From: Synechococcus sp. CCY 9618
GTDB lineage: Bacteria > Cyanobacteriota > Cyanobacteriia > PCC-6307 > Cyanobiaceae
DNA: 64,000 bases
Reading direction: 5' to 3'
Assembly (NCBI RefSeq): GCF_019038415.1
Contig: NZ_JAFKRG010000009.1
Coordinates: 248,001 to 312,000, forward strand
Below, one piece after another: positions 4,761 through 63,148 of this stretch (within the stretch, counting starts at the first letter, position 1; each line of letters begins with the position of its first letter). A program made the position numbers and the translations under genes. Below the pieces are notes generated by a model that did not search any database, was not told the origin of the DNA, and saw only the letters and a program-made list of their open reading frames with translations.

Positions 4761-6842
<2,082 letters not shown>

Positions 6843-7265
6843 TCAGGCGGCTGCCAGCCGGGTGATGCGATCCACCCGCCAGCTCTCCTCCACCTTCACG
6901 AAGGTGAAGTCGAGGGGCAGCTCCTCCTTGCCGTCGGTCTTCAGCTTCACCGTGAGGATCACCTGGCCCTCCTGCAGTCGCGGCCGGCCGGACTTGAGGT
7001 TGCGGTACTTGTTGAGCTGCAGTCCGGCCAGGAAGCGGATGAACTGCTGGCGGTTGACGTGGGAGCGGTAGTTGCGGGTGGTGAGCAGGTAAGCCCCGTC
7101 CACCTGACCGGAGGCCACCTGGGTGAAGAACTGCTTGATCAGCGGATTGATGCCCCGGGCGCTGAGCACCAGCCGGACCGCCGAGATGGTCCAGTACAGA
7201 AGCAAGCCGCCGGCTCCTGCCAGCAGCAGCTTGGAGCCGATGTCGCGGGCCAGTACCCAGTCCAT
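6843..7265 (-). CDS. Conserved hypothetical protein with one N-terminal membrane segment
   Basis: 140 residues from the ATG at 7265. An upstream extension of the same frame would run antisense into the SprT-like gene and is rejected. One hydrophobic segment (about 10-30) is followed by a soluble domain with alternating strands (VILTVKLKT, LPLDFTFVKVEESWRVDRI). That resembles small alpha+beta folds of the NTF2/DUF4864 kind, but I cannot assign a family firmly. It lies immediately upstream of ligA with a 3-base gap and divergent from the SprT-like gene. No function is proposed. Confidence 0.7.
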   Translation of the reverse strand: MDWVLARDIGSKLLLAGAGGLLLYWTISAVRLVLSARGINPLIKQFFTQVASGQVDGAYLLTTRNYRSHVNRQQFIRFLAGLQLNKYRNLKSGRPRLQEGQVILTVKLKTDGKEELPLDFTFVKVEESWRVDRITRLAAA

Positions 7266-37842: not shown

Positions 37843-39759
37843 ATGCCAGACCTTTCCCGACCAGGTCCCCTGCTTGCTTCTCCGCCGCCCGATCTGCCGA
37901 TGCAGGGGCCCGATCGCCACCCCAATGTGATCCAGGAGCTGCTCGGGGAGCTCTACGACACGTTTTCAGACGTCAGGGACGGTCGGGTGGCGGACTACAT
38001 CCCTGAGCTGGCAAAGGCATGCCCTGATGATTTCGGCATCGTCATCGCCACCTCGGGAGGGCGGATCTACGAGATCGGCGACACGCGCAAGGAATTCACC
38101 ATCCAATCGATCTCGAAGCCATTCATCTATGCGTTGGCGCTGAAGATGCTCTCGCTGGATTTCATGGCCAGCAAGATCGATGTGGAGCCTTCCGGGGAGG
38201 CCTTCAATGCCATCAGTCTGGATTCGGAGTCGGGAAAGCCGCGCAACCCGATGATCAACGCGGGCGCCATCGCCGCTTCCGCTCAGATCTGCGATGCCAA
38301 TCCGGCGGGTGCCGTTGATCTGCTGCTCGATTATTTCGAGGAGCTGGCCGGCCGGAGGCTGACCGTCAATGAGGCCGTCTACCGGTCGGAAAAGGAGACG
38401 GGCCACCGCAACCGGGCCATCGGCCACCTGCTGCGCAACTTCAACATCATCGAGTCCGACCCTGAGCCGGCCCTCGATCTCTATTTCCAGCAGTGCGCCA
38501 TCTCCGTCACCTGCCACGACCTGGCCGTGATGGCCGCCACCCTGGCCTGTCAGGGGCGCAATCCCTTCACCGGCGGCCAGCCCCTCTCCCATGACATCAC
38601 GGTCCGGGTGCTGGCCCTGATGGGAACCTGCGGGATGTATGACTTCGCCGGCCAGTGGCTCCACGATGTGGGCATCCCGGCCAAGAGCGGTGTCGCCGGC
38701 GGGGTGATGGCGGTGATTCCCGGGCGGCTCGGCATCGCCACCTATTCCCCACCCCTCGACAACTTCGGCAACAGCGTGCGTGGGGTGGCCGTCTGTCGCC
38801 AGCTCTCGGCGGGGGTGGGCCTGAGCCTGTTCAACCAGTACTTCCAGACCGATGCCACGATCCGCCGCTCCTACCAGGGTTCCCAACGCAAATCCCGCCG
38901 CTGGCGCAGCGAGCGGGAGCTGCGGATCCTCGCCCCCCACCGTGACGAAGTGCGCATCATCCACGCCCAGGGGGTGCTCGATTTCGGGGGTATCGAACAA
39001 CTGGCCGCCGAACTGGTGCGGCTCAGCAACGACGTACGCATCCTCATCCTGGATCTGGCCCATGTGACCGAGTGCCCGCTGGAATCCTCGGGGCTGCTGG
39101 ATCGCCAGCTGTGTGCGATGGAGGACGAGGGAGTTGAGATCATTCTCTCGCGGGCGGGACGGCTGCCCCTGGTCTCCATGCCCGACTGGAAGATCACCGA
39201 TCGGGTTGATGCCTACGACCACCTGGACTCCGCCCTGGAGGCGGCCGAGGATCTGCTGCTGGCCTGGTATGACGCGGCTGGCGAAGGAACCGATGGCAGC
39301 GGCCCTGGGACACTCGAGGATCAGGGGCTGCTCCAGCCGCTCGCGGCAGAGCATCGGCGGATCCTGGCCGAGAGGATGTCCCTGCGGTCCTTCGCGGCCG
39401 GGGATTTCGTGCTTCGCCGGGGCGATCCCGGTGACGAACTGTTCCTGGTGCGCTCCGGTGCCTTCGACATCGCCCTCGATGTCAAGACCGGGGATGGACT
39501 CTGCCATTCCACCCGGCTTGCCACCTTCGGCCCCGGGCTCTGTTTCGGCGAGATCGGCTTCGTGGCCCAGACCCCCCGCACCGCCGACATCATCGCCACC
39601 CAGCCGGGGGAGTGCTGGGTGCTGCACCGCCAGGGGTTCGAAGACCTCAGCCAGAGCCACCCCGAGGTGGTGATCGCCCTGCTCACGGCGCTCACCTGCG
39701 ACATCGGCGCCAAGCTCAGCCAGACCAGCGTCCAGCTCACCCTGATGGAGCACTACTGA
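37843..39759 (+). CDS. Glutaminase fused to STAS and cyclic-nucleotide-binding domains
   Basis: 638 residues, about twice a plain glutaminase. Residues 24-330 form a serine-dependent glutaminase: SISK (Ser89, Lys92), NPMINAGAI (Asn139 region), ETGHRNRAIG and GVAGGVMAVIPG. About 345-455 is a STAS domain (VRIIHAQGVLDFGGIEQLA, ILILDLAHVTECP). About 475-620 is a cyclic-nucleotide-binding domain with phosphate-binding cassette FGEIGF...PRTADI, retaining the Glu and Arg that contact the nucleotide. The enzyme would convert glutamine to glutamate plus ammonia, with activity likely tuned by a cyclic nucleotide; that is inferred. An MscS gene follows 36 bases downstream. Confidence 0.9.
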   Translation: MPDLSRPGPLLASPPPDLPMQGPDRHPNVIQELLGELYDTFSDVRDGRVADYIPELAKACPDDFGIVIATSGGRIYEIGDTRKEFTIQSISKPFIYALALKMLSLDFMASKIDVEPSGEAFNAISLDSESGKPRNPMINAGAIAASAQICDANPAGAVDLLLDYFEELAGRRLTVNEAVYRSEKETGHRNRAIGHLLRNFNIIESDPEPALDLYFQQCAISVTCHDLAVMAATLACQGRNPFTGGQPLSHDITVRVLALMGTCGMYDFAGQWLHDVGIPAKSGVAGGVMAVIPGRLGIATYSPPLDNFGNSVRGVAVCRQLSAGVGLSLFNQYFQTDATIRRSYQGSQRKSRRWRSERELRILAPHRDEVRIIHAQGVLDFGGIEQLAAELVRLSNDVRILILDLAHVTECPLESSGLLDRQLCAMEDEGVEIILSRAGRLPLVSMPDWKITDRVDAYDHLDSALEAAEDLLLAWYDAAGEGTDGSGPGTLEDQGLLQPLAAEHRRILAERMSLRSFAAGDFVLRRGDPGDELFLVRSGAFDIALDVKTGDGLCHSTRLATFGPGLCFGEIGFVAQTPRTADIIATQPGECWVLHRQGFEDLSQSHPEVVIALLTALTCDIGAKLSQTSVQLTLMEHY

Positions 39760-39795: not shown

Positions 39796-41493
39796 ATGGG
39801 CCTGATCGGGTCGCAGGCTCCACGGGGCGGAAGGGGTGCCGGCCCATGGATCGCCGGGGCCATCCTCGCCGCTCTGCTGCTGCTCCTGGTCGTCTCTCCC
39901 TTCCCCAGGGGCCTGGCCAGTGAATCCGCCCCCGCCACCTCCCCCGCCACTGCCACTGCCCCAGCCCCAGCCCCCACCGCGCGGGCGGGGGCGCCGGTGG
40001 TTCTGGCCGGCAGGAACCTGTTCTCCATCCAGGCCGACATCGGTTCCTTCTCCCCGGAGTTCCGGGCCCGGGTGGTGAGCGAGCGCATCGACCAGCTGGC
40101 CCGGGAGCGGGACGTGCCCCTGGATCAGCTCAACATCGTCGTCAACGAAGCCGCCGACACCGTCGACATCCGCTCAGGCCGCAGGGTGCTGCTCACGGTG
40201 GCGGCCGTGGACGCGGTGGCGGCGGGCAAGAGCCAGCAGGCCCTTGCCCTGGCCCATGTCAAGACCATCCGGGAGGCCGTGGGGGAGTACCGGGACGCCC
40301 ACCGCCTTTCCAGCATCCTGCGCGGGCTGCTGTACTCCTTCATCGCCACGGGGGTGCTGATCGCCCTGATGGTGGCGGTGCTGCGCTCGGCTCCGAAGCT
40401 CACCCGCCGGCTGGTGCGCTGGCGCGGTACGCGGATCCGCGCCCTGACGATCCTGGGCACGGAGGTGCTGTCCGCCGGCCGGGTGGTCGACCTGCTGACG
40501 GAGATCATCCGGGTGGTTCGGTTGACGATCCTGGTGATTCTGTGTCTGGTCTATATCAACTTCGTCCTCAGCTTTTTCCCCTGGACCCTGGGCTTCAGTC
40601 GAATTCTGGTCAGGTACATCCAGACGGCGGCGGCAACGCTTGGATCTTCGTTGCTCTCCTATCTGCCGAATTTGTTCTTTCTGGCCATCATCACGCTGGT
40701 CACCAGTTATATCCTCAAGATTTTTAAGTTCATCTCGTCGGAGATCGCGAACGGCACCATTGTCTTCGCCGGCTTCCATGCCGATTGGGCACGGCCCACC
40801 TACAAGCTGGTGCAGTTCCTGGTGTTCGCCTTCGCCGCCACCATCGCCTTCCCCTATCTGCCGGGAGCCGGCACACCCGCCTTCCAGGGGATTTCCATCT
40901 TTCTGGGTGTGCTGGTATCCCTGGGCTCCTCCTCGGCGATTTCAAACATCGTGGCCGGGGTGATCCTGGTCTACACCCGTTCGTTTCAGCCCGGGGATCG
41001 GGTCCAGATCTCTGACACGGTGGGCGATGTGGTGGGCCGAAACCTGTTCGTCACGCGCCTGCGCAGCATCAAGAACGTGGTCATCTCCATCCCCAATGCC
41101 GCCGTGCTTGGAAGCCATGTGATCAACTACAGCTCCGCCGCCAATGACCCGGAAACACCGCCCCTGATTCTCTACACCACCGTCACCATCGGCTATGACG
41201 TCCCCTGGCGTCAGGTGCATGAGGTTCTGATCCAGGCGGCCCTGGCTGTGCCGGATATCCTGCGGGACCCGAGGCCATTCATTCTGCAGACCAGTCTTGA
41301 CGACTTCTTTGTCAGTTATCAGCTGAATGCCTATACCGATCGGCCCGGAGTCATGGCCAGCATCTATTCAGATATTCATCAGAACATCCAGGATTTCTGC
41401 GCCAGAGCCGACATCGAAATCCTCTCCCCCCACTACCGTGCCATGCGCAATGGCAATCCCAGCACCATCCCGGCTGAGGTCCCCCCGCCCTGA
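39796..41493 (+). CDS. MscS-family mechanosensitive ion channel
   Basis: 565 residues. A signal-like hydrophobic segment (about 17-36) precedes a periplasmic region with a FSIQADIGSFSPEFRARVVSERI-like stretch. Four or five membrane segments follow (about 175-195, 237-262, 275-312, 335-355, 360-395). The last carries the pore-lining MscS pattern GVLVSLGSSSAISNIVAGVILVYTRSFQPGD, followed by the beta-domain signature GDVVGRNLFVTRLRSIKNVVISIPN. Such channels release solutes on osmotic down-shock. The gene lies 36 bases after the glutaminase fusion and is probably in its operon, which suggests a connection to glutamate or osmotic balance. Confidence 0.92.
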   Translation: MGLIGSQAPRGGRGAGPWIAGAILAALLLLLVVSPFPRGLASESAPATSPATATAPAPAPTARAGAPVVLAGRNLFSIQADIGSFSPEFRARVVSERIDQLARERDVPLDQLNIVVNEAADTVDIRSGRRVLLTVAAVDAVAAGKSQQALALAHVKTIREAVGEYRDAHRLSSILRGLLYSFIATGVLIALMVAVLRSAPKLTRRLVRWRGTRIRALTILGTEVLSAGRVVDLLTEIIRVVRLTILVILCLVYINFVLSFFPWTLGFSRILVRYIQTAAATLGSSLLSYLPNLFFLAIITLVTSYILKIFKFISSEIANGTIVFAGFHADWARPTYKLVQFLVFAFAATIAFPYLPGAGTPAFQGISIFLGVLVSLGSSSAISNIVAGVILVYTRSFQPGDRVQISDTVGDVVGRNLFVTRLRSIKNVVISIPNAAVLGSHVINYSSAANDPETPPLILYTTVTIGYDVPWRQVHEVLIQAALAVPDILRDPRPFILQTSLDDFFVSYQLNAYTDRPGVMASIYSDIHQNIQDFCARADIEILSPHYRAMRNGNPSTIPAEVPPP

Positions 41494-46074: not shown

Positions 46075-49000
46075 ATGGTCGGCAAATCTGGTCTCGGTCG
46101 TTACCAATTTTTCCTGCAACAGCTGCGCCCTGGTCCCTGGGCCATGCTGGTGGCTCTTTCTGCTGCGCTGGCCGGAGGGTCGGCCCCTGCCAGAGCCGGT
46201 GAGATCACGGCCACCTCCGGGGCAAAGGGCCTGGGCAGTCAGGTCAACGGGGTCCCTGGCGGCAGCTGCCTCAGCGGGCGCTGCGCCATTCAGGGAGGGA
46301 CCGGCGCCGGCGCCAACCTCTTCCACCGTTTCTCGGCCTTCGACACCCGCGGCGGCATCACCGGTGTGAATCTCGACGTGGGCCGATACCGCAACGTGAT
46401 CCTGGGCGTCACCCATTCCCAGGGCAGCTTCATCGACCGATCCATCGCCCTCAGCGCGCCGGCGAATCTTGTCTGGTTGTCCCCGGGCGGCATTCGGCTG
46501 GAGGGCGGGGGTGGCTTCACCAATGCCCGCCATCTCACCTTGAGCACGGCCACAGGCCTGCGGATCGGAGACGGCGTTTTCGATGTGTTCGGCACCGGTG
46601 CTGCCGCCGCCAGGGGTCTGACGGGTTCCCCCGACCTGAGCCGCTCCGGGCTGCGCACCGATCCGCTCACCCTGGGGCAGCTGGGACTGAGCGCCCAGGG
46701 GGACCTGTCCCTCGACGGCGGTCTGCTCACGGTCGACAGTGGTCTGCTGATCGATGCCCAGGGCGGTCACCTCCTCCTTGGCGGCTCGCGGCTCACGGCT
46801 CCCGGGGGCGAGGTCGACCTGCACGGTCAGCAGGTGATGCTGACCGACAGCACGGTGGATGTCTCCTCCCCCGGCGGGGCCGGAGGGGCCATCACGGTGG
46901 CTGGTGGCAAGGTGACGCTGGCAGCGACCCGGCTGCTCGCCTCAGGCGGCGGCGGCGGCGGCAGTGTGCGTGTCGGCGGAGGCCTGCGGGGAGCCGATCC
47001 GGCGACTCTGAATGCTCTCGAGACCACGGTGGATGAGGCCTCCAGTCTGCGCGCCGATGCGACGGTGAAGGGGCATGGCGGGCAGGTGGTGGTGTACGCC
47101 AGCGGACACGCCAGGGTCAATGGGGATCTGGGCGCCCGCGGTGGACCTGCCGGCGGCGACGGCGGTCTGGTGGAAACCTCGGCCGCGGTGCTTGAGCTGA
47201 CCTCCACGCCCGATCTGGCGGCGGTGGCCGGCCGGGGGGGCACCTGGCTGATCGATCCGATCAACATCGAGATCTTCGATCCCAGCCTTCCGCCGGCCTC
47301 GATGGGGAGCGACTCGATCTCCAGGCTGAACATCAACAACCTCAACGCCTGTCTCAACTCGGGTTGTCAGCTGCAGCTGGACACCAATCAGGCGGGTCCA
47401 CAGGCAGGCAATATCTACGTGAACGCCGGCTTCAACAAGGTCTCCGGGACGACTTCGGAGATCCAGTTGCGCGCCGATCGGAACATCTTCATCAACGTGC
47501 CGGGCAGCGCTGCCCTGGCCTTTTCGAACACCTCCACCGCCGGCGGTCTCAGCGTTTCCCTTCGCCATGGGCAATTCAGCTCGGGTCTCCAGGGCCCCGG
47601 TGCCGCCTACTGGCAGAACGGTGACATTGCCCTGGGCAGCGGCAATTTCAACATCACCCAGGGGGCGGCCAACGCTCCTGGCGCTCTTGTCCTGGCCGGA
47701 GACGGCAACCCCCTCACCCTGCGCTCTGGAAGCTTGCGGACAGGTTCGCTGCGCTGGGAGCCGGGCTTTGCTTCGGGCCTCCAGATCGGGGCCGGCGGCA
47801 GCGATGCCACTCTTCTGGTTGGGGTCCTTTCCACCAGCCAGGCGTCAACGATCCGGCTCCAGGGATCAGGCGCATCCAGCCTCAACATCGCGTCCTCCAC
47901 CTTTCTCAATAGAGGTCTGATCGGTGGCAGCGGGATCATCACCGTCGGCAACGGGGCAGGACGCTTCAGCAACGGGAGCGGGGTGGCGCCGGCCGGCTCC
48001 GTGATCCTTTCCCCGGAGGGCGACCTTCAGATCCGTGCCGGACAGATGCTCTTCGGCGACGACAGCCAACTGCGGCTGGATCTCGGCAGGAACGATCAGC
48101 TCACCGTTTTCGGCGATGCGGTGCTGGGGGGCGGCCTGCTGGTGTCCTCTCCCCCCACCTTGAATGGGGTCACTGGCCTCGATCTGGTGCGTGCCCAGCA
48201 GATCCGCGGGGGGTTCGCCCCCGGTGCCGTCAGCCTGCCGCCGCTTGTCCGGCTCGACGGGATCACGCAGACGACGGATCCGCTTCTGCCGGCGGTTTTC
48301 CGGGGAGAGGCGCTGCCGCTCCTGCCAGCCCCTTCACCACCGAGCCCTTCACCACCGGGGCTTTCAGCATCGGGGCCTTCATCGCCCCGGCCTTCATCGC
48401 CCCGGCCTTCAGCACCTCCACTTTCAGCATCTGCACCTGAACCACCTGCGGCCGCAGCCCCAACCCCTTCCGCCCCGCTGCGGGCAGCGGCGACACGCCT
48501 GCTCAGCATCCCTGATCTGGCCTACCAGATCTTCCCCGGCACCCAGACCTCACCGGCGGGCTCGTCCCTGGGCGGCAGGGATGACGGAGAAGGCTCCGAT
48601 GCGCTGGCCGTCAACCTCTCCGAGGCCGATTTCAGGCTGGAGGCCGCTGGGTCGGGGAGGCTTCCCGGTCCCCTGACCACCACCACCTCCACCATGGGCG
48701 CCGATCAGGTGGCCATCGCCATCTCCGAGGGCGATCAACAGCGCAGCGAGGACGTCAGGCGTTCCCTTGGGGATGTGGGCCCACCGGACGATGCCCCGGG
48801 GAGTCTGCGGGTTGATGAGTTGCAGAGGTTGCTGCAGGAAGCCTCCCGGAAGGGGGACGGCGATGACGAGCGCTTCAACCCAGCGGTGCTGATGGTGGCA
48901 TTCACCGAAGCGAAGGGCTCGGCCGCCCGTCCCTCCGGCGGCTCGCCATCGAAGGCAGCCAATTCCTTTCTGGACCTGATTCTGCTGAGCCGTCAAGGAG

Positions 49001-50007
49001 AGCCCCTGGGTCAGCGGGTGGAACTCTCCAGGGAACAGTTCGGCGCCCAGCTGCGGGCGCTCTACCGGCAGCTGGCACGCCTCGAGCCCCTCCAGGTGGA
49101 GAATCCCGACTCACCCTCCAGACAGCTCCATCGCGCCATCATCGGCCCGGTGGCCGAGGAACTCCAGCGTCGGGGCATCACCACCCTTGTGATCGTCGCC
49201 GACCGGGGGCTCCAGGCGCTGCCGTTTGCGGCCCTGCACGATGGCAGGAGCTACTTCGGCGACCGTTACGGCTTCGCGCTCACCCCGTCCCTGAATCTCA
49301 CATCCTTGGCCCCTCCCCGTCAGACCCGAGGGCGGGTGCTGGCGGCCGGGGCCTCCGAGTTCGACAGCCTCAGCCCCCTGCCTCTGGTGAACAAGGAACT
49401 GGCGGGGATTCCCGAAGGTGTCGGCGTCGATCGCTACCTCAACCGCTCCTTCACCCCAGCGGTCCTGCTCACCCAGGCCGCCGACAGTCGCTACGAGCGT
49501 CTGCACGTGGCCACCCATGCGGAATTCCTCCCCGGCGGGCCGGCCCAGGCCCGGATCTACACGGGCACCGGCCCGGTCAGCCTCAAGGACTTCTCCCGAC
49601 TGCGCCAGCAGCGCAGCGGCAGTCCCCTGGAGCTCTTCGTGCTCAGTGCCTGCCGCACAGCCCTGGGGGACGCCGACAGCGAAATGGGCTTCGCTGGCCT
49701 GGCCCTGCAGGCGGGGTCACGCAGCGCCATCGGAACCCTCTGGTACGTCGATGACGTCGCCACCTCCGCCTATTTCCTGCAGCTCTATCGCTATCTCGAC
49801 CAGGGCCTGCAGAAATCGGAAGCCCTCAGGGCCACCCGCCGGGCCATGGCCACTGGCACCCTCCGGCTTCAGGGCGATAAGGTCGTTTCATCCGACGGCG
49901 TTCCCCTGCTGACCGGTCTTTCTCCTTCCCAGCAACGTCGCATCGCGCGAGGAATGAACCATCCCTATTTCTGGGCTGGGGTGCAATTGATCGGAACGCC
50001 CTGGTGA
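46075..50007 (+). CDS. TpsA-type secreted protein with C-terminal CHAT (caspase-like) protease domain
   Basis: 1310 residues. A signal peptide ends near residue 42 (SAPARA-GEI). Then a TPS/filamentous-haemagglutinin N-terminal domain (about 43-330) has FHRFSAFDTRGGITGVNLD, ANLVWLSPGGIRLEGGG (the NPNGI position) and beta-helix-like GG repeats. A beta-rich region and a proline-rich pentapeptide repeat (753-787) follow. The last 350 residues form a CHAT domain: ITTLVIVADRGLQALPFAALHDG, the catalytic His1148 in VATHAEF and Cys1193 in LSACRTALGDAD. CHAT proteases are clan CD, caspase-like enzymes. Export by the divergent TpsB would place the protease on or outside the cell. DUF3307 and DUF928 genes follow. 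Confidence 0.9.
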   Translation: MVGKSGLGRYQFFLQQLRPGPWAMLVALSAALAGGSAPARAGEITATSGAKGLGSQVNGVPGGSCLSGRCAIQGGTGAGANLFHRFSAFDTRGGITGVNLDVGRYRNVILGVTHSQGSFIDRSIALSAPANLVWLSPGGIRLEGGGGFTNARHLTLSTATGLRIGDGVFDVFGTGAAAARGLTGSPDLSRSGLRTDPLTLGQLGLSAQGDLSLDGGLLTVDSGLLIDAQGGHLLLGGSRLTAPGGEVDLHGQQVMLTDSTVDVSSPGGAGGAITVAGGKVTLAATRLLASGGGGGGSVRVGGGLRGADPATLNALETTVDEASSLRADATVKGHGGQVVVYASGHARVNGDLGARGGPAGGDGGLVETSAAVLELTSTPDLAAVAGRGGTWLIDPINIEIFDPSLPPASMGSDSISRLNINNLNACLNSGCQLQLDTNQAGPQAGNIYVNAGFNKVSGTTSEIQLRADRNIFINVPGSAALAFSNTSTAGGLSVSLRHGQFSSGLQGPGAAYWQNGDIALGSGNFNITQGAANAPGALVLAGDGNPLTLRSGSLRTGSLRWEPGFASGLQIGAGGSDATLLVGVLSTSQASTIRLQGSGASSLNIASSTFLNRGLIGGSGIITVGNGAGRFSNGSGVAPAGSVILSPEGDLQIRAGQMLFGDDSQLRLDLGRNDQLTVFGDAVLGGGLLVSSPPTLNGVTGLDLVRAQQIRGGFAPGAVSLPPLVRLDGITQTTDPLLPAVFRGEALPLLPAPSPPSPSPPGLSASGPSSPRPSSPRPSAPPLSASAPEPPAAAAPTPSAPLRAAATRLLSIPDLAYQIFPGTQTSPAGSSLGGRDDGEGSDALAVNLSEADFRLEAAGSGRLPGPLTTTTSTMGADQVAIAISEGDQQRSEDVRRSLGDVGPPDDAPGSLRVDELQRLLQEASRKGDGDDERFNPAVLMVAFTEAKGSAARPSGGSPSKAANSFLDLILLSRQGEPLGQRVELSREQFGAQLRALYRQLARLEPLQVENPDSPSRQLHRAIIGPVAEELQRRGITTLVIVADRGLQALPFAALHDGRSYFGDRYGFALTPSLNLTSLAPPRQTRGRVLAAGASEFDSLSPLPLVNKELAGIPEGVGVDRYLNRSFTPAVLLTQAADSRYERLHVATHAEFLPGGPAQARIYTGTGPVSLKDFSRLRQQRSGSPLELFVLSACRTALGDADSEMGFAGLALQAGSRSAIGTLWYVDDVATSAYFLQLYRYLDQGLQKSEALRATRRAMATGTLRLQGDKVVSSDGVPLLTGLSPSQQRRIARGMNHPYFWAGVQLIGTPW
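48331..48435 (+). repeat. Seven-unit 15-bp in-frame repeat in TpsA-CHAT linker
   Basis: Seven 15-base units encode PSPPS, PSPPG, LSASG, PSSPR, PSSPR, PSAPP and LSASA (residues 753-787). Two adjacent units, PSSPR, are identical in DNA. It forms a flexible proline-rich linker between the beta-rich and CHAT parts. Confidence 0.9.
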
Positions 50008-50103: not shown

Positions 50104-50463
50104 GTGCCTGATCTCGCAGCGTCCTTCAACGTCTTTCTGATGCTGTCGATGGCACACTTCCTCGGCGATTTCGCTCTTCAGAGCGACCGCATGGCCCGGG
50201 AGAAGTGTCCAGGTTGCGGCGTCACCCTCGGCTGGGGCTGGTGGCTCACCGCCCACGCCGCCATCCACGGATTTCTTGTGGCGGCGGTGACCCAGATGCC
50301 CCTGCTGGGTGTGGCAGAATGGCTGGTGCATCTGCTAATTGACGTAGGCAAATGCCGACGTCTCTGGAGCCTTCCCTTCGATCAGGCTCTTCACATCATC
50401 ACCAAGGCCCTCTGGGCCTGGCTGGCCATCAGCCTGGCCACCCGACCCCTCTGGCTGCAATGA
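50104..50463 (+). CDS. DUF3307-type small membrane protein
   Basis: 119 residues from GTG at 50104. The motif AHFLGDFALQSDRMAREK near residue 18 and later LTAHAAIHGFLVAAV are the DUF3307 hallmark. The protein has three or four hydrophobic segments and a conserved HLLIDVGKCR region. The function is unknown. It follows the TpsA-CHAT gene by 96 bp on the same strand and precedes the DUF928 gene by 22 bases. Confidence 0.8.
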   Translation: MPDLAASFNVFLMLSMAHFLGDFALQSDRMAREKCPGCGVTLGWGWWLTAHAAIHGFLVAAVTQMPLLGVAEWLVHLLIDVGKCRRLWSLPFDQALHIITKALWAWLAISLATRPLWLQ

Positions 50464-50485: not shown

Positions 50486-51202
50486 ATGAACACCCTTCCT
50501 CCGCCTGGCCTCCGGCCACGATCCGGCAGCGGTGCCCGGCCCCCGGGCCGCCGCGCTGCCTGCATGGTCGCCGCCGGGCTGCTCGCCTTCACCGCGCCTG
50601 GCCTCCAGGTCCCTGCGGCCCATGCCCAGAGCGATCTTCGCAAGACCTTTCCCGGACGCCGGGTGGGGGGTGGCACCAGGGACGAATGCTCCAGCCGCCT
50701 GCTGGCCCACCTGGTGCCCGCCAGCAGCGTCTTCGCCCCCGGCCAGGATCGCTACCTGGGGGTGCTTGAGGGTCCCAGTGCAAGCCCCAGCCCCCTGGAG
50801 CTCACCTTCCGTCCCCTCAGCGGCTGGGGCAGCGCGGGTGCCGCTGTCGCCACCGGCCAGCGGCGGGTCCTGCCGGCCTCCCAGCCCGGCATCACCCTGC
50901 TGACGCTCCCAGCGGTGAAGGTGCCGACGGTGTGGGAGTCGAACTACATCTGCCCGCAGGCGCCCGCCACCCCTGCCCAGACCGATCCCCTCAGCTTCGT
51001 GGCCACCGAGTCGCCTCCGGCCCTCAGCCTGCTGGTGATGGAGGCCTCCAAGGAGGATGGGGCCGTGAAGGCCGCTCTCGCCCTGCTGCAGCGCTCCTGC
51101 GGCGGGAGCGTCTCCCGTCAGGAGGCCCTCGACGCCTTCGGACTGTCTGATCTGATCACGGTCCGGTGGCCAGAGCGGATTCCGGTGCGCTGTCCCGCCT
51201 GA
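50486..51202 (+). CDS. DUF928-family exported protein
   Basis: 238 residues. A signal peptide of about 47 residues (hydrophobic AACMVAAGLLAFTAPGL then PAAHAQS) leads into the DUF928 start FPGRRVGGGTRDECSS. The body keeps the family's paired strands (LTLLTLPAVKVPTVWESNYIC-type) and ends with LQRSCGGSVSRQEALDAFGL. The function is unknown, and from memory the family is often encoded near CHAT and CHASE2 genes in cyanobacteria. Its last 47 bases overlap the convergent cyclase gene. Confidence 0.8.
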   Translation: MNTLPPPGLRPRSGSGARPPGRRAACMVAAGLLAFTAPGLQVPAAHAQSDLRKTFPGRRVGGGTRDECSSRLLAHLVPASSVFAPGQDRYLGVLEGPSASPSPLELTFRPLSGWGSAGAAVATGQRRVLPASQPGITLLTLPAVKVPTVWESNYICPQAPATPAQTDPLSFVATESPPALSLLVMEASKEDGAVKAALALLQRSCGGSVSRQEALDAFGLSDLITVRWPERIPVRCPA

Positions 51203-53108
51203 GGGAGCCGCGCAGCTCCCAGATCCGCAGCCGTTCGGCGCGGCCCTTCACGGCGATTGACCCCCAGTCGAGCCACTCCAGGGGCAGTCCCGCCGGCAGC
51301 AGATCCCGGGTGCTGGACGAGACCAGCACCCGGCAGAGGTTGGTCTGGCGCTCCTTCTGCAGGCTCTCCAGCCGCGAGGCGCAGTTCACCGCATCGCCGA
51401 TCACGGCGTATTCCAGCCGCTCAGTGCTGCCCATTGATCCCGCCAGCACGGCACCGGAATGCACCCCGATGCGCAGACCCATGGCCGGCAGTCCCTCCTG
51501 CTCGAGTTCCTGATTGAGGCGTGCCACATCGCGCTGGATGGCCAGGGCGGCGTCGACGGCGGCCTTGGCGTCGGCCTCCAGCCCGCTGCTCAGGGGGGCC
51601 CCGAAGACCGCCAGCAATCCGTCGCCGGTGAACTTGTTGACCATCCCGCCCCGCCGGGTGATCGCCGGAACGAACAGGGCCATGCCCCGGTTCAGCCAGG
51701 CCAGCAGCTCACCCGGGCTGAGGCGTTCCGACACGCTTGTGAACTGGCAGGTGTCGGACATCAGCACGGTGACCGGCAGCAGCCGACCCTCGAAGCGGCC
51801 ATCGCTGAGCAGACCATCCCGCTGGTTCCACAGCTGGCGGGCCACCGCCGGTGAGGTGGTCTGGCCGAGCAGCCGTTCGATCTGCTGGCGCTGCTTCTGG
51901 CTGGAGGCGCCCCGCCGCAGCCAGGCGGCCCCGGCCATCGTGATCAGTCCGATCAGGGGCATGCTCAGCCCGACCCAGACGAAGTTGTGGAGCAGTGCCA
52001 CGGCGCCCCCGACCATCAGGCCGGCCACCAGCCCCACCACGATCACACTGCGCCGCAGCAGGAGGAAGGCTTCCCCGAGCAGGAGGCCCAGCACCACCGC
52101 CAGCACTTCGGCCGTGCGCTCCAGCCAGCCCGGCAGGGTGCGCAGGCGGCGCGGATCGCTGGCTCGGTCGCGCTCCATCAGGGCCGCCAGGCGATGGGCG
52201 TGGATCTCCACACCGGGCACGAGTCGTTGACGAGCCCCCAGGCTGGATCGGGTCTGGGGCACCGAGAACAGATCCCGCAGGCTGGGGGCCGTGCTGCCGA
52301 TCAGCACGATGTGGCCGCGGATCTGGTCGCTGGGGATCGGCCGTCTGCCGAGCACGTCCTGGAGGCTCCAGAGGTGGAAACTGCCGAGCCGGTGGAAGGA
52401 CAGCATCTGCTGGAAGCCGGCGGCATCGAGGGCCTCGTAGCCCCCGGATTCCGGTTCCAGCCAGGGGCCGGGTTCGGTGCCCCTGTCGAGGCGCTGTCGC
52501 AGGTTGCGCTGGCCCGTGCCCACCTCCAGCAGGCGCAGGGGCAGGGAGACGGTGGCCTCGTCCTGGCCCGCCACGTGAACCAGGTCGCGACGCATGATCC
52601 CGTCGGGATCGACCACCAGGTCATTGAAGCCGCGTCGTTCCGGCGGGGTTCCCGGCACCGCACCGATGGCCTCGGCCACGTTGAAGATGGAGACGAGGCG
52701 GGGATTGCTGCGGAAGCGCTCGCGCAGGCAGCCCTGGTCGGGTCCCACGCCCTGGTCGCGGTAGATGTCGAGCCCGATTGCCACGGCCCCCCCGGCGTCG
52801 AGCCGATCGATCGCTTCACAGAGCACCTTGTCGTCGATGGGGAAGCCGTAGGTGGCCAGGTCCGATTCATCGATGCCGACGATCGTGATCGGCCTGTCCG
52901 TGCCCGGCGGCGCGGCGCGCAGGCTGGTGATCAGGTCGTAGAGCAGCAGGTTGAGGGTTTCGTTGATGGGGCTGCGCTGCAGGGCCAGCAGCAGCAGGGC
53001 GGCAGCCCCATAGGGAACCAGGGAGCGGGCCCCATCCGCCAGACGGCCGAGCCGCAGCCGGTCCCGCACGGACTTCGGGGGTGAGGCGCGGGCAGGTCCG
53101 TTGGCCAT
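51156..53108 (-). CDS. CHASE2-domain class III nucleotide cyclase
   Basis: 650 residues. An N-terminal membrane segment and a periplasmic CHASE2 sensor domain (about 60-315; TIVGIDESDLATYGFPIDD, AVAIGLDIYRD) are followed by three membrane segments (about 335-400) and a class III cyclase domain (about 435-620). Catalytic residues are intact: metal Asp in LMSDTCQF, KFTGDG with Lys and metal Asp, VIGDAVN with substrate-selecting Asp, and the transition-state Asn and Arg. Lys plus Asp at those two positions favours adenylate over guanylate cyclase. Its ATG overlaps the stop of the channel gene by one base (TGATG). The product would be expected to act on the neighbouring channel. Confidence 0.93.
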   Translation of the reverse strand: MANGPARASPPKSVRDRLRLGRLADGARSLVPYGAAALLLLALQRSPINETLNLLLYDLITSLRAAPPGTDRPITIVGIDESDLATYGFPIDDKVLCEAIDRLDAGGAVAIGLDIYRDQGVGPDQGCLRERFRSNPRLVSIFNVAEAIGAVPGTPPERRGFNDLVVDPDGIMRRDLVHVAGQDEATVSLPLRLLEVGTGQRNLRQRLDRGTEPGPWLEPESGGYEALDAAGFQQMLSFHRLGSFHLWSLQDVLGRRPIPSDQIRGHIVLIGSTAPSLRDLFSVPQTRSSLGARQRLVPGVEIHAHRLAALMERDRASDPRRLRTLPGWLERTAEVLAVVLGLLLGEAFLLLRRSVIVVGLVAGLMVGGAVALLHNFVWVGLSMPLIGLITMAGAAWLRRGASSQKQRQQIERLLGQTTSPAVARQLWNQRDGLLSDGRFEGRLLPVTVLMSDTCQFTSVSERLSPGELLAWLNRGMALFVPAITRRGGMVNKFTGDGLLAVFGAPLSSGLEADAKAAVDAALAIQRDVARLNQELEQEGLPAMGLRIGVHSGAVLAGSMGSTERLEYAVIGDAVNCASRLESLQKERQTNLCRVLVSSSTRDLLPAGLPLEWLDWGSIAVKGRAERLRIWELRGSLRRDSAPESALATGP

Positions 53109-54688
53109 CAGACTCCCTTGAAGGCGAAGAAGAGCCGTTTCATGGTGTCGAGCAGGGCATTGGAGCGTTCCGTCTGCTGTTCCCGGTCCAGGCTCTTGAG
53201 TTCGGCCTGACGCTCCTCCACCAGGGCAGCGAAACGCTCCAGCAGATCAGGGTTCTCCCCCAGCAGGCCCTTGATGCTGTCCCGGTCCACCTTCAGCAGC
53301 AGACATTCCTCGGTGGCCCGCACCGTCGCACTGCGGGGGGCGTCGAGAAACAGGGTCATCTCGCCGAACACCTCGCCGGGCCCCAGCTGGCGCACCGCCA
53401 CCGTGTGCCCCGGTTGCACCTCCTTGAGGATCTCCACCGTGCCCCGCAGCAGATGGAACATCGAGCGACCCTCGGCCCCCTCCTGCACCACCGCTTCGCC
53501 GGGGCCGTAGGAGACCAGGTGACTGCCCTCCACGAGCGTCTCCAGCTGCTCCCCGCTCAGGTCGGCGAAGATGCCCACGCTGGAGAGGGCCTGGCAGCAC
53601 AGCTGGGGGGAGGGGCGGTCGGCCTGCGGGGGGCGATCCCTGGAGCGTCGCGGCTGGATCTCGCGCACCGGGAAGGGAATGCTCTGGCCTTCCCGGGCCA
53701 GGGCGTACCAGATGTGCTCCAGCAGATCGCTGCGCAGGTCGCCGATGGCGCCGTCTCCCAGCTCCTTCTGCCACACCTGCAGCTCATAGGCGATCGAACT
53801 GTCCTGGAACTCCCTGACCCTGATGCGGGGTGCAGGTTCGCGCAGCACCCGTGGATGCTGCAGCACCACCTTCTCCAGGAGGGCCTTCGCCTGGGCAGGG
53901 GGCAGGTCGTAGTCCAGGCCGACGCTGAAGCGGTTGCTCACTGCCCCGGAGCGGCCCAGATTGCGCAGCACCTTCTCGGTGACCAGGCTGTTGGGCACCA
54001 CCACCAGGTGACCGTCCATGTTGCGGAGCATGGTGTCGCGCCAGGTCAGCCGCACCACCACGCCCCGCACGCCCTCGTCGACCTCCAGGAAATCCCCCTC
54101 GACGAAATCGTCTCCCAGCTGAAGCTCCAGACCGGAGAACAGATCCTTGAGGGATTCCTGGGCCGCCAGGCCGATGACGGCGGTCAGCACCGCGGAGGTG
54201 GTCACCAGGCCCACCAGGTCGAGCCGGGCCGACTGCCGCACCACCACCACCGTGGCCATGGCCCCGCTGCCCAGGGTGAGCAGCTGCATGAGCAGCTGGG
54301 GCGGCGGCCTCCACAGCCCCAGGTGGGCGGGCACCTCCAGCGCCGCCCAGAGGGCCATCAGAATGGCCGCATAGGTCAGCAGCAGATCGTCGGTGAGCCC
54401 CAGCCACACCCGGTAGCCGTCCGGAAGGGCCTGCAGCGGCAGGGAGCTGAGCACGGCCCAGGTCAGGACGGCGGCCAGGGGGAGCCGCATCGGCATGCCG
54501 GGCAGCTTTCTGCGCCGGCACACCCGGGCGAGCACGAGCAGTCCGGCCACGGCCACCAGGGCGACGATCCAGGTCTGGAGCAGGGCCAATGCGCACGCTT
54601 CGATGGCCCCATCCTGCCGCCGATCCTGGCCTGCGGCTTCGGGAGCGAGCAGGCTGGGAGCACTCGCTTCCGCCTGTGATGCGCCCAC
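53108..54688 (-). CDS. MscS-type channel with C-terminal cyclic-nucleotide-binding domain (bCNG-like)
   Basis: 526 residues. Five membrane segments lie at about 35-60, 73-95, 105-130, 148-170 and 178-200, the last leading into the MscS pore and beta domain (VLTAVIGLAAQESLKDLFSGLELQLGDDF, RLTWRDTMLRNMDGHLVVVPNSLV). The C-terminal cyclic-nucleotide-binding domain (about 365-500) has the phosphate cassette FGEMTLF...PRSATV with Glu and Arg intact, followed by the helix DRDSIKGLLGENPDL. This order is that of bacterial cyclic-nucleotide-gated channels of the MscS superfamily. The GTG start at 54688 overlaps the divergent SIMPL start by ten bases, so a later start is possible. It is co-translated with the cyclase gene. 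Confidence 0.92.
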   Translation of the reverse strand: MGASQAEASAPSLLAPEAAGQDRRQDGAIEACALALLQTWIVALVAVAGLLVLARVCRRRKLPGMPMRLPLAAVLTWAVLSSLPLQALPDGYRVWLGLTDDLLLTYAAILMALWAALEVPAHLGLWRPPPQLLMQLLTLGSGAMATVVVVRQSARLDLVGLVTTSAVLTAVIGLAAQESLKDLFSGLELQLGDDFVEGDFLEVDEGVRGVVVRLTWRDTMLRNMDGHLVVVPNSLVTEKVLRNLGRSGAVSNRFSVGLDYDLPPAQAKALLEKVVLQHPRVLREPAPRIRVREFQDSSIAYELQVWQKELGDGAIGDLRSDLLEHIWYALAREGQSIPFPVREIQPRRSRDRPPQADRPSPQLCCQALSSVGIFADLSGEQLETLVEGSHLVSYGPGEAVVQEGAEGRSMFHLLRGTVEILKEVQPGHTVAVRQLGPGEVFGEMTLFLDAPRSATVRATEECLLLKVDRDSIKGLLGENPDLLERFAALVEERQAELKSLDREQQTERSNALLDTMKRLFFAFKGV

Positions 54689-55383
54689 TCTCCGTGCCTC
54701 CCGTGGCCGTGCTTCTGTCCCTGGTGGCCACCGGTGCCTGGCCAGGGGCCGCCGCCGCCCAGGTGCAGCTGCGCTGCGACGGCACCCTGCTGGAAGCCCG
54801 AGGCAGCGCCGAACAGGAACGCCCCACCCGCCGGCTCGCCTTCTCCCTGTCGCTGGAGGCGGAGGCGGCCACGGCCGATGCTGCCCTCCAGACGCTTCAG
54901 GAGCGCCTGGCCGCCGTTCGCACGGCCCTGCAGGGGCAGCAGGTGGAAGAGCTGCGGGTCACCTCACCGAGCACCTGGCAGCGGCCCGCCGACCGCAACC
55001 GGCCGGCCGCGGTGATGGCCAGCCTCCAGGTCAGTGGCCGGCTGATGCCCCAGCGCCTGCAGGCCCTGATCCGGCAGGTGGGGGGCCTGGCGGGGGTGCG
55101 GCTGGCACCGGTGGGCACCGAAGCTGATCGGGCCCAGGACGCCGCGGTGCGGCGCGGGCTGCTGCGCGCCGCCTACCAGGATGCCCTCGCCCAGGCCAGG
55201 GAGGTGGCCGCTGCGGTGGGGCTCAATCAGCTCGCCCCCCTGGAGGTGCAGCTGGATGGCAATGAGCTGCGGCCGATGCTGATGCGGGCGAAGGCGGAGG
55301 ACGCCACGCCGCCCTTTGATCCCGCCGAACTGGCCCAGCCGAAGGATCGGCTCAGCCTGCTGGTGCGGTTCTGCGCCCGCTGA
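54679..55383 (+). CDS. SIMPL/DUF541-domain exported protein
   Basis: 234 residues from the ATG at 54679. The start opens a clear signal peptide (PPVAVLLSLVATGAWPGAAAA-Q). The body has the SIMPL order: LEARGSAEQERPTRRLAFSLSLEAEAATADAALQTLQ, an internal SLQVSGRL strand, and a long helix with AYQDALAQAREVAAAVGL. SIMPL proteins are periplasmic or outer-membrane associated and poorly understood. It is divergent from the channel gene, overlapping it by ten bases. Confidence 0.82.
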   Translation: MRPLSVPPVAVLLSLVATGAWPGAAAAQVQLRCDGTLLEARGSAEQERPTRRLAFSLSLEAEAATADAALQTLQERLAAVRTALQGQQVEELRVTSPSTWQRPADRNRPAAVMASLQVSGRLMPQRLQALIRQVGGLAGVRLAPVGTEADRAQDAAVRRGLLRAAYQDALAQAREVAAAVGLNQLAPLEVQLDGNELRPMLMRAKAEDATPPFDPAELAQPKDRLSLLVRFCAR

Positions 55384-55449: not shown

Positions 55450-56205
55450 ATGGGCCCGAATCGGTCCCGGAGTCTTCCGCGCATGCTCCCCCGCCGCCGC
55501 CTGCCCGGTCTGCCGGTGCTGCCGATCCTGGTGCTTCTCGTCGGTCCGCTTCCCGGGCCCCTGCCGGCGCGGGCGTCCGAGAGCGCCGTGGTGCAGGAAA
55601 TTCTCGACGGCAAGGAGCTCTACATCGACGGCAGGACCGCCCGGGTGAAGGAGAAGGCCAACGCCCCCCAGAAGCTCAGCACCCAGAACAGCCGGGGCCA
55701 GATCCGCTTCGACAGCGGCGCCGCCGGCCGCCTCAACCGCTTCTCCCAGCTGAAGCTGGGTCAGGGCTGCTTCCTGATCGAGAAGGGCCAGATCCTGGTG
55801 TCGGGCAAGCAGAGCGGCTGCACCCGCTCAGCACGGCTGAGTGTGCGGGGCACCAATTATCTGATCGACATCAACGAGGCAGGGGAGTCGGAGATCTCCG
55901 TGCTCGAAGGGTCGGTGGAGGTCGAGCCGCTGGCCGATGGGGAGCCCACCGGTCAGCCCGCCACCACGGTGGAGGCCGGCCAGAAGCTGCGGCTCTCGCC
56001 GGCGGGGGTGGTGATGGCGATTCTTGGGCTCACGGTGGGCGACTACAACGGCATCCTCGGCGGCCCCCTCTTCCAGGGGTTCCGGGTGCCGCTGCCGGCC
56101 TATGGGTCTCTGGAGGGCTACCTCCGCTCCAAGGTGCCGGGGGTGAATCTCCCCGTGCCGATCCCGGCGCCGTCCCTGCCGTTCGGTCTGCCGCGCTTCT
56201 TCTGA
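55450..56205 (+). CDS. FecR-domain exported protein
   Basis: 251 residues; the ATG at 55483 is an equally good start, directly before MLPRRR and the hydrophobic signal. After cleavage near ARAS the FecR-like beta domain runs about 48-200: VVQEILDGKELYIDGRTARVKEKA, RIRFDSGAAGRLN-type, VRGTNYLIDINEAGESEISVLEGSVEV. The C-terminal tail is proline-rich. Free-standing FecR domains without an anti-sigma helix are common in cyanobacterial periplasm. It lies 66 bp after the SIMPL gene on the same strand, and no FecI-type sigma factor is near. Confidence 0.82.
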   Translation: MGPNRSRSLPRMLPRRRLPGLPVLPILVLLVGPLPGPLPARASESAVVQEILDGKELYIDGRTARVKEKANAPQKLSTQNSRGQIRFDSGAAGRLNRFSQLKLGQGCFLIEKGQILVSGKQSGCTRSARLSVRGTNYLIDINEAGESEISVLEGSVEVEPLADGEPTGQPATTVEAGQKLRLSPAGVVMAILGLTVGDYNGILGGPLFQGFRVPLPAYGSLEGYLRSKVPGVNLPVPIPAPSLPFGLPRFF

Positions 56206-61177: not shown

Positions 61178-63148
61178 GTGCCCATGGCCTCCTTCACCGA
61201 TGATGGCGTTCTGCTCGCGCTCCCACCGGCGCCACCGGGAGACTCCTTCGAGATGGCGCGTCCCCGAACGCTTTCCCTGCTCACCGGTGCCCTGCTGCTC
61301 TGGGTCGGCGTCACCGCCGGCTGGCCGGGTCCGCGCTGGCGGGTGGCCGAGCGGGGCCTGGAGGACCAGTTGGTGCGGCTGCGGGGGGCCCGCCTGCCGC
61401 CGGCCGGGCTGGTGCTGGTGACGGTGGACGATGCCACGCTCCAGCAGGGGAACTGGTTCGAGGGCAGCCGTCGGATCCCTGCCTGGGCCCAGGGGATGGG
61501 CAGCCTGCCCTGGCCCCGGGCCACCTATGGCCAGGTGGCGGAGGCAGTCCTCCAGGCCGGCGCCGCCGCCGTGGCCATCAACGTGGTGTTCGAGGGGCCC
61601 AGCGGCAAGGGACCGGCGGATGACGCCGCCTTCGCCACCGTTCTGCAGAGTCACCCGGGCCGCATCGCCCTGGCGGCGGAGATGCTCGAATCCAACGACA
61701 CCCAGGGGGCCGGGGCCCTCACCCTGGTACGCCCCGAGGCGTTCATGACCGCCCTGGGCGGGGCCGGTCCCCTGGGCCTCACCAACATCCTGGCCGGCAC
61801 CCCCGGCCAGCCCCTGCGTCACCCGGAGGCCTATGCCCGCGGCGTCCTGCCGGCCCAGGGGGCCCTCGGCCAGAGCGCCCTCTCCTCCACCCTGCTGCGC
61901 CTCGGTGGTCGCCGCAGCCGCCAGCACGACCCCGGCAGCGCTCTCAATCCCTATGGCCCCGAGGGAACTCTGCAGCGACTGCCTGCCTGGGAGGTGCTTG
62001 ACCCCGAGCGCTGGGCCCGCCATCCCCTGAGGCCCGCGCTGGCCGGGGCTGTGGTGCTGGTGGGTCCGGTGGTGGCCGAGGGCACCGACGGCTACCCCAC
62101 CCCGTTCGGCGCCCTGTCGGGGCTGGAGGTGCTGGGCACCGCCACCGCCAACTCCCTGGTGGGCGATGGGTTGCAGCCCTGGCCCCAGGAGGGCGTGTCC
62201 CGGGCCCTGCTGGCCCTGACGCCGCTGCTGCTGGTGCTGGCGGGGGCCCGGCTGCGCCCGGCCCTGCGCTGGCGGCTGGGGCTGGTGGTGCTGGCCCTGG
62301 CCCTCCAGTTCGGGGCGGGGATGGTGGCGCTCCAGGCCGCCCACCGCTGGCTGCCCCTGCTCACCCCCCTCACGGGGCTGGTGCTGCTCGGTCTGCTCTA
62401 CGGCGGCGATGCCTACGTGCGCGAGGGCCAGGAACGGCGCCGGCTGCGGCGCACCTTCGAGCGCTACGTGGCCCCTGGCGTGGTGGCGGAGATCCTTTCC
62501 GACCCGGAATCGGCCCAGGGGATCCTGCGGGGACGGCTGCTGGAGGTGACCGTGCTGATGACCGACCTCAAGGGCTTCACCACCCTCACCCAGCAACGCA
62601 GCGCGTCCGGGGAGAGCGAGCTGCACGTGCACCAGCTCAACGAGTACCTGGGGGCCATGGTGGAGGTGGTGACGGCCCATGGCGGCACCATCGACAAGTT
62701 CATCGGCGACGCCGTGATGGCCGTGTTCGGTTCGCCCGTGAGCCGCGGCGTGGCGGCGGAGGCCGGCCAGGCGGTGCGCTGCGCCATGGCCATGCGGGCG
62801 GCCCTGGCGGATCTCAACGCCGACTGGGCCCGGCGCGGCATCGCCACCCTCGACAACGGCGTGGGCCTGGCCAGCGGCCAGGTGATGGTGGGCCAGATCG
62901 GCAGCCCCAGGCGCATGGAGTTCACCGTGATCGGTGACACGGTGAACCTGGCCGCCCGCCTGGAGTCGGTGACCCGCCAGGTGGAGGCGGCGGTGCTGTT
63001 TGATCACGCCACCGCCGCTCTGCTGAGGGACGACCCGGGGCTTGTGGTCTCCTCCCTGGGTCCCCAGGCGGTCAAGAGCCTGGGGGAGGTGGAGGTGTTT
63101 ACGGCCGAGGCTGGGGGCCAGACGGCCCCGGTTCAGGCTTCCAGGTAG
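61178..63148 (+). CDS. CHASE2-domain class III nucleotide cyclase, second copy
   Basis: 656 residues as called from GTG at 61178. ATG at 61184 and ATG at 61253 (the latter with a GGGAG ribosome site about ten bases before) are alternatives. A membrane segment and a periplasmic CHASE2 domain (about 65-340; LVLVTVDDATLQQGNWF, AAVAINVVFEGP) are followed by three membrane segments (about 345-420) and the cyclase domain (about 455-640). Catalytic residues: Asp in LMTDLKGF, Lys and Asp in DKFIGDAV, VIGDTVN, plus the Asn-Arg pair in VNLAARLE. This is adenylate-cyclase-like, as in the first copy. It converges on speA with a 16-base overlap. Confidence 0.92.
   Translation: MPMASFTDDGVLLALPPAPPGDSFEMARPRTLSLLTGALLLWVGVTAGWPGPRWRVAERGLEDQLVRLRGARLPPAGLVLVTVDDATLQQGNWFEGSRRIPAWAQGMGSLPWPRATYGQVAEAVLQAGAAAVAINVVFEGPSGKGPADDAAFATVLQSHPGRIALAAEMLESNDTQGAGALTLVRPEAFMTALGGAGPLGLTNILAGTPGQPLRHPEAYARGVLPAQGALGQSALSSTLLRLGGRRSRQHDPGSALNPYGPEGTLQRLPAWEVLDPERWARHPLRPALAGAVVLVGPVVAEGTDGYPTPFGALSGLEVLGTATANSLVGDGLQPWPQEGVSRALLALTPLLLVLAGARLRPALRWRLGLVVLALALQFGAGMVALQAAHRWLPLLTPLTGLVLLGLLYGGDAYVREGQERRRLRRTFERYVAPGVVAEILSDPESAQGILRGRLLEVTVLMTDLKGFTTLTQQRSASGESELHVHQLNEYLGAMVEVVTAHGGTIDKFIGDAVMAVFGSPVSRGVAAEAGQAVRCAMAMRAALADLNADWARRGIATLDNGVGLASGQVMVGQIGSPRRMEFTVIGDTVNLAARLESVTRQVEAAVLFDHATAALLRDDPGLVVSSLGPQAVKSLGEVEVFTAEAGGQTAPVQASR

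Follow-up and report, generated by a model that had tools for sequence, protein, structure and literature searches.

Organization of the locus

The window, i.e., the whole stretch of 64,000 nucleotides that was analyzed, lies within contig C9 of the 2.93 Mb genome of a freshwater cyanobacterium, whose closest relatives are Cyanobium and Synechococcus strains. It carries a pair of genes encoding an MscS-type channel with a C-terminal cyclic-nucleotide-binding (CNB) domain and a CHASE2 class III nucleotide cyclase, surrounded by several conserved neighbors (Table 1).

Table 1 Features of the cyclase-channel locus (window coordinates)
Feature	Coordinates	Strand	Remarks
MscS-type channel with C-terminal cyclic-nucleotide-binding domain	53108..54688	-	526 aa as listed, start uncertain
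Phosphate-binding cassette of the channel	53321..53371	-	VFGEMTLFLDAPRSATV (Glu443, Arg452)
MscS beta and C-terminal domains of the channel	53687..54154	-	Pfam
CHASE2 class III nucleotide cyclase	51156..53108	-	650 aa; predicted adenylate cyclase
CHASE2 sensor domain of the cyclase	52083..53000	-	Pfam, PF05226
Class III catalytic domain of the cyclase	51234..51776	-	D452, K492, D496, A568, N575, R579
TGATG stop-start overlap of channel and cyclase	53106..53110	-	
orf238	50486..51202	+	Predicted secreted protein of no known family; found always with a window-type cyclase
SIMPL-domain protein	54679..55383	+	Divergent from the channel; ATG at 54679 proposed, followed by a signal peptide
FecR-domain protein	55450..56205	+	Conserved neighbor
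DUF3307 protein	50104..50463	+	Conserved neighbor
CHAT-domain protein	46075..50007	+	Conserved neighbor; weak haemagglutinin match at the N-terminus
Second CHASE2 cyclase of the same island	61178..63148	+	Signature DKDTNR

The host genome encodes three class III cyclases in total. Besides the two listed in Table 1, the third is found just past the window (C9:315748-316302), and the three together span approximately 17 kb. The starts of the divergent SIMPL and channel genes fall within about 10 bases of each other (54679-54688), with no space for ordinary promoters between them.

Cyclase and its predicted substrate

The cyclase matches the Pfam models CHASE2 (residues 37-342, E 4e-46) and Guanylate_cyc (residues 445-625, E 7e-18), and it fits a CHASE2 receptor cyclase, in which the sensor domain and membrane helices precede the catalytic domain. 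Its structure model resembles CyaC and CyaB, with TM-scores by target of 0.90 and 0.91, respectively. Residues were assigned by alignment with CyaB (PDB ID: 3r5g) and Cya2 (PDB ID: 2w01). Both metal-binding Asp residues as well as the transition-state Asn and Arg, which define class III, are present. The first-pass annotation had credited the enzyme with all class III catalytic residues; this holds for catalysis (D452, D496, N575, and R579, together with K492) but not for specificity, where Ala568 is found, and hence for five of the six positions. From the adenylate-type purine pair (Lys plus Thr/Asp), the window cyclase has Lys492, while its second purine-recognition position, Ala568, corresponds to Thr in CyaB and Gly in Cya2. 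The D-K-D-A-N-R signature recurs in the intact relatives that were examined, distant ones among them; Gly instead of Ala occurs at the second purine position in 2 of 18 window-type cyclases.

Cya2 from Synechocystis is a CHASE2-regulated guanylate cyclase, and its E488K variant, which combines Lys with Gly, is ATP-specific (PMC5995499). As the window enzyme possesses Lys492, and as the E488K variant is specific for ATP despite its Gly, an adenylate cyclase is the best prediction, and the product is probably cAMP. Ala568 leaves the choice of substrate slightly open.

Channel and its cyclic-nucleotide-binding cassette

Pfam matches of the channel comprise MS_channel_2nd, MS_channel_3rd, and cNMP_binding (residues 392-478, E 1.5e-21). 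The protein therefore has the domain content of a bCNG channel, i.e., MscS beta and C-terminal domains and a C-terminal CNB domain with the cassette Glu and Arg. The cassette, previously described as intact, does contain both residues (Glu443 and Arg452 in the 526-aa numbering). Five membrane helices are predicted, and the structure model has five long helices ahead of the beta domain; it matches MscS and PKA-type CNB domains. The placement of domains within the model is unreliable due to its low overall pTM (0.34), and residues 1-24 are of low confidence. The listed translation start, a GTG at 54688, is also uncertain, since it overlaps with the beginning of the divergently oriented SIMPL gene. 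Glu and Arg are kept in all full-length channels examined from the window's family except a dCache-type channel in a genome of the window's genus (L165), where Ser replaces the Arg. Judging from its sequence, the window channel may bind cyclic nucleotides and be gated by them.

The host encodes a second MscS-CNB channel (C9:59730-61181, locus L163); its cassette is intact, and no cyclase is present in the 17 kb fetched around it. A separate clade of unpaired MscS-CNB channels carries Tyr or Cys at the position of the cassette Arg, with no cyclase domain in the fetched stretches (L136, L140, L141, L144, L148-L150, L157-L161, L184-L186, and L191).

Gene overlap and selection

The shared base reported at TGATG was confirmed: the TGA of the channel and the ATG of the cyclase have the A at 53108 in common. 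TGATG at the channel stop occurs in 12 of 17 related loci. Among the 12 of these 17 loci that have an intact cyclase, the junction is TGATG in nine, the two genes start separately in two, and the cyclase starts a few bases later in one. In the remaining five, the cyclase is broken (L007), cut off soon after its start (L009), fragmented (L016), or absent (L014 and L017). The earlier suggestion that enzyme and receptor are made together is supported.

Both genes are under similar purifying selection in the window clade, with dN/dS of 0.177 for the cyclase and 0.169 for the channel. Chance open reading frames are ruled out by the strong domain matches and by the selection values, since every window-clade pair that was measured has a dN/dS under 0.25.

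Gene linkage in the window's family

A survey of 251 genomes of the window's family revealed 57 places with a window-type cyclase (54 genomes) and 111 places with a channel (78 genomes); both genes are present in 46 genomes. Of the 57 cyclase places, 37 have a channel no more than 5 kb away, in three arrangements: channel then cyclase (21 cases, 16 of them within 200 bp), cyclase then channel (10), and convergent (6). At the other places the channel is 5-30 kb away (4), further off (1), or missing from the contig (15). The order of the two genes thus shifts, and their closeness persists through rearrangement.

Channels with an intact cassette are kept without a window-type cyclase in L009, L014, L017, L166, L303, and L304, and the cyclase is kept without a channel nearby in L292 and L305 (L009 and L303 are very probably one contig). 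The occurrence of both situations argues against an obligate complex.

The cyclase is tracked more strictly by orf238 than by the channel. In tblastn searches of 49 family loci, of which L002 and L182 are one contig and L009 and L303 very probably another, orf238 was found in all 36 loci with a window-type cyclase and in none of the 12 without one; L007, with its broken cyclase, was left uncounted and retains part of orf238. The 3' ends of orf238 and the cyclase overlap by 47 bp, and this tail-to-tail layout is usual across the loci. The start of orf238 resembles a signal peptide, and searches with Pfam and NCBIfam profiles gave no match. It is proposed here as a candidate input to CHASE2. Given that orf238 accompanies the cyclase in every such locus, the channel might represent one output among several in a larger module.

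Recurrence and separate origins of the pair

How often the two genes adjoin in other genomes was a question raised with the first-pass annotation; adjacency turns out to be recurrent and independently evolved. Class III cyclases are common in cyanobacteria (259 of 292 genomes, in a search that capped the number counted per genome). In these 292 genomes, the genomic context of 72 MscS-CNB channels was compared with that of 32 MscS hits lacking CNB coverage. Two of the latter, L223 and L224, turned out to contain a CNB domain and are counted with the MscS-CNB loci (72 + 2 = 74); no cyclase is found within 500 bp of either, and that of L224 is 3.5 kb away. At 22 of the 74 MscS-CNB loci, a class III cyclase on the same strand is located within 500 bp, versus none of the 30 MscS loci without CNB (Fisher p 3e-4, kinship not corrected for). 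Within 3 kb on either strand, the counts are 30 of 72 and 0 of 30. The link between cyclase and channel is well above chance.

The pair was assembled at least four times, as separated by the trees, in both gene orders and with two types of sensor. Channel then CHASE2 cyclase is the main order in the window's family. In many other families, a dCache-HAMP cyclase precedes the channel, often with an overlap, and bears a C-terminal globin in two cases; in L131, L137, L146, and L151 the gene upstream of the channel encodes a CHASE2 cyclase; and in three Roseomonadaceae (L020, L022, and L026) the channel is followed by a CHASE2 cyclase approximately 1.2 kb on. In the Roseicella locus L022, the only one inspected in this respect, a gene at 6222-6944 between the two encodes an OmpA-like protein, as read from its translation.

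In the channel tree (calculated without 12 near-identical Cyanobium loci), the types of pair form distinct groups with good support, and unpaired channels branch between these groups. In the cyclase tree (calculated without those near-identical loci apart from L009, and without L028, L134, L154, L156, L188, and short rows), dCache, window-type, and Cya2-like enzymes stand apart, and window-type and Roseomonadaceae enzymes are weak sisters (93/87). A single ancestral operon behind all pairs was rejected, as trees and gene orders separate the cases; long branches, of which the tree program gave warning, leave some deep placements unsure. The repeated, separate assembly of enzyme-channel pairs suggests that the enzyme directly controls the channel.

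Degenerate pairs of the dCache branch

The first survey yielded 17 channels of the dCache group, in each of which Ser replaces the cassette Arg; an essential residue is missing from 15 of the 17 cyclases. For a second draw, of 388 genomes, a Ser-type channel served as the query, and the set grew to 79 channels. The cassette Arg is present in none of these 79 (75 Ser, 4 Thr); since the channels form one clade (100/100), it was probably lost once at the base, so that 79 of 79 does not amount to 79 independent observations, and the alternative of many separate losses is the less likely one. An upstream cyclase-domain gene is found within 900 bp of 70 of the 79 channels; the nine exceptions include one at a contig end (L248) and one whose cyclase is 1446 bp off (L254). 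Of these 70 cyclases, 68 are short of an essential residue, and two keep both Asp residues, the Asn, and the Arg. The replacements are of many different kinds, so that the losses in the cyclases look repeated. Both genes are nevertheless under purifying selection (median dN/dS of 0.063 for the degenerate cyclases and 0.057 for the channels paired with them) and do not decay.

Channels linked to CHASE2 cyclases retain both Glu and Arg, and no catalytic residue has been lost from these cyclases, whose signatures are adenylate-like (window type and L137) or Cya2-like (L131, L146, and L151). By its sequence, the window pair forms the chemically intact counterpart to the dCache pairs.

That the pairing outlived the chemistry in the dCache branch argues for a functional bond between the two proteins and, in that branch, for contact or another ligand. 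Structural matches of the window channel model include cAMP-independent kinetoplastid PKA subunits, one of them solved with inosine, which suggests that a non-cyclic ligand is possible for the dCache channels. We tentatively propose, at somewhat less than even confidence, that the pairing is a recurrent design, a wire that can be rebuilt: the CHASE2 type would run on local cyclic nucleotide, maybe as a relay of three parts whose input is the secreted orf238, and the dCache type on contact or a non-cyclic ligand.

The two cyclases with a C-terminal globin (L154:8701-11310 and L188:7822-10614) have dCache-HAMP sensors and degenerate cyclase domains and stand beside Ser-type MscS-CNB channels. 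They could possibly be haem- or gas-sensing receptors for the channel.

Proposed signaling relay and alternatives

The reading that we consider fairly probable is that the two genes encode one signaling relay from adenylate cyclase through cAMP to the channel. The CHASE2 domain of the membrane receptor cyclase would read a periplasmic state, the cyclase would convert ATP to cAMP, and the co-translated channel would take up that cAMP at its C-terminal domain and change its opening, with the stop-start overlap holding the amounts of both proteins in step. Such a relay is suggested by the domains, the intact sites, the conserved overlap, the linkage, the repeated assembly, and the similar selection on both genes. 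The cAMP would presumably act locally; a physical complex of cyclase and channel is possible and is not needed for the relay. The agreement between enzyme and cassette, both intact in CHASE2 pairs and both impaired in dCache pairs, counts for the relay, while the second MscS-CNB channel of the host, far from any cyclase in a genome with three of them, counts against it.

The pair is also part of a larger island that holds further cyclic-nucleotide-binding and secreted proteins, so that its linkage could be to the island. On this account, which we regard as unlikely yet the most serious of the alternatives, both genes belong to a mobile surface-protein/cAMP island, the channel senses a general cAMP pool supplied mostly by the second cyclase, and the overlap is ordinary packing. 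Indeed, CHAT, FecR, SIMPL, orf238, and the second CHASE2 cyclase are conserved nearby, the channel persists beside the second cyclase after the first has been lost (L009, L014, L017, and L166), and the relevant passages of PMC7522525 describe an island, Syn_GI122, where cyclases lie near CRP or a cAMP-regulated MscS channel. Against this account stand the pairs that recur outside the island, in other families, with other cyclase types, in the opposite order, and with tight overlaps, as well as the lack of any adjacent cyclase at the 30 MscS loci without CNB.

A relay through cAMP is also to be weighed against direct contact, in which the receptor cyclase and the channel form a complex and movement of the cyclase dimer, not its product, drives the channel. 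The dCache pairing, which survives under purifying selection with catalysis lost in 68 of 70 cyclases and the Arg lost in all 79 channels of the clade, is what contact would predict; the window branch, however, has an intact active site and an intact cassette, neither of which contact alone would require, and for the window pair this explanation appears improbable.

The Pycsar effector is a TIR protein or the transmembrane PycTM, and the product of the Pycsar cyclase is pyrimidine-specific. A Pycsar-like anti-phage system at the window locus would have a cyclic pyrimidine open a killing channel. The class III cyclase beside a CNB-domain effector is a shared feature, and there are hits of PycC models to the catalytic domain (E 1e-26) and of Pycsar TIR-effector models to the CNB region (E 2e-15); but sensor, substrate residue, effector, and genomic setting all differ. 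These PycC models hit the island's second cyclase as well, an enzyme with no fused or overlapping channel, so that the matches report class III kinship; the coupled cyclase has a CHASE2 sensor and the purine-type Lys492, its effector is an MscS channel rather than a TIR or short membrane protein (the PADLOC match being limited to the CNB region), and the locus is syntenic across the genus, not a variable defense island. On the strength of Lys492, CHASE2, the MscS effector, and the syntenic setting, Pycsar was rejected as the main reading and is very improbable.

Relation to known systems

Caldwell (2010) and Malcolm (2012), both cited in PMC4560390, reportedly studied bCNG channels, which belong to the MscS superfamily. 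The window channel has their order of MscS pore and beta domains followed by CNB and is coupled to a receptor cyclase. To our knowledge, bCNG channels have so far lacked an evident source of ligand. SthK and other six-helix bacterial CNG channels, found among the PDB matches, share the C-terminal CNB domain with the window channel but belong to a different pore family.

Cya2 (PDB ID: 2w01; PMC5995499) has CHASE2, membrane helices, and the class III fold in common with the window cyclase. It differs by Glu/Gly in place of Lys492/Ala568, from which ATP is the predicted substrate in the window. Cya2-like enzymes lie upstream of MscS-CNB channels in L131, L146, and L151.

bCNG channels and CHASE2 cyclases are known separately, and the neighborhood of cyclase and channel in picocyanobacteria is already in print: the relevant passages of PMC7522525 (2020), which deal with the island Syn_GI122 of marine Synechococcus/Cyanobium, place adenylate cyclases, together with CHAT proteins, close to CRP or a cAMP-regulated MscS channel. 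Adenylate cyclases near such a channel and CHAT proteins are thus shared with the window locus, whereas the overlap, the changes of gene order, the repeated origin, and the degenerate dCache pairs do not figure in those passages. In a search of the open literature, in which most papers were judged by title and subscription papers were out of scope, no account of the stop-start junction, of the recurrent assembly, or of degenerate pairs was recognized.

The repeated adjacency of bCNG channels and receptor cyclases provides testable enzyme-channel pairs, both intact and degenerate, with the same architecture. Comparison of the two kinds would tell whether the cyclase controls the channel by messenger, locality, or touch. 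The paired genes could also serve as compact parts that convert a sensor signal into ion flux.

Elsewhere in the window, a glutaminase fused to a CNB domain (37843-39759) is followed by an MscS channel without CNB (39796-41493); in L290 and L291, a homolog of this glutaminase-CNB protein adjoins an MscS-CNB channel.
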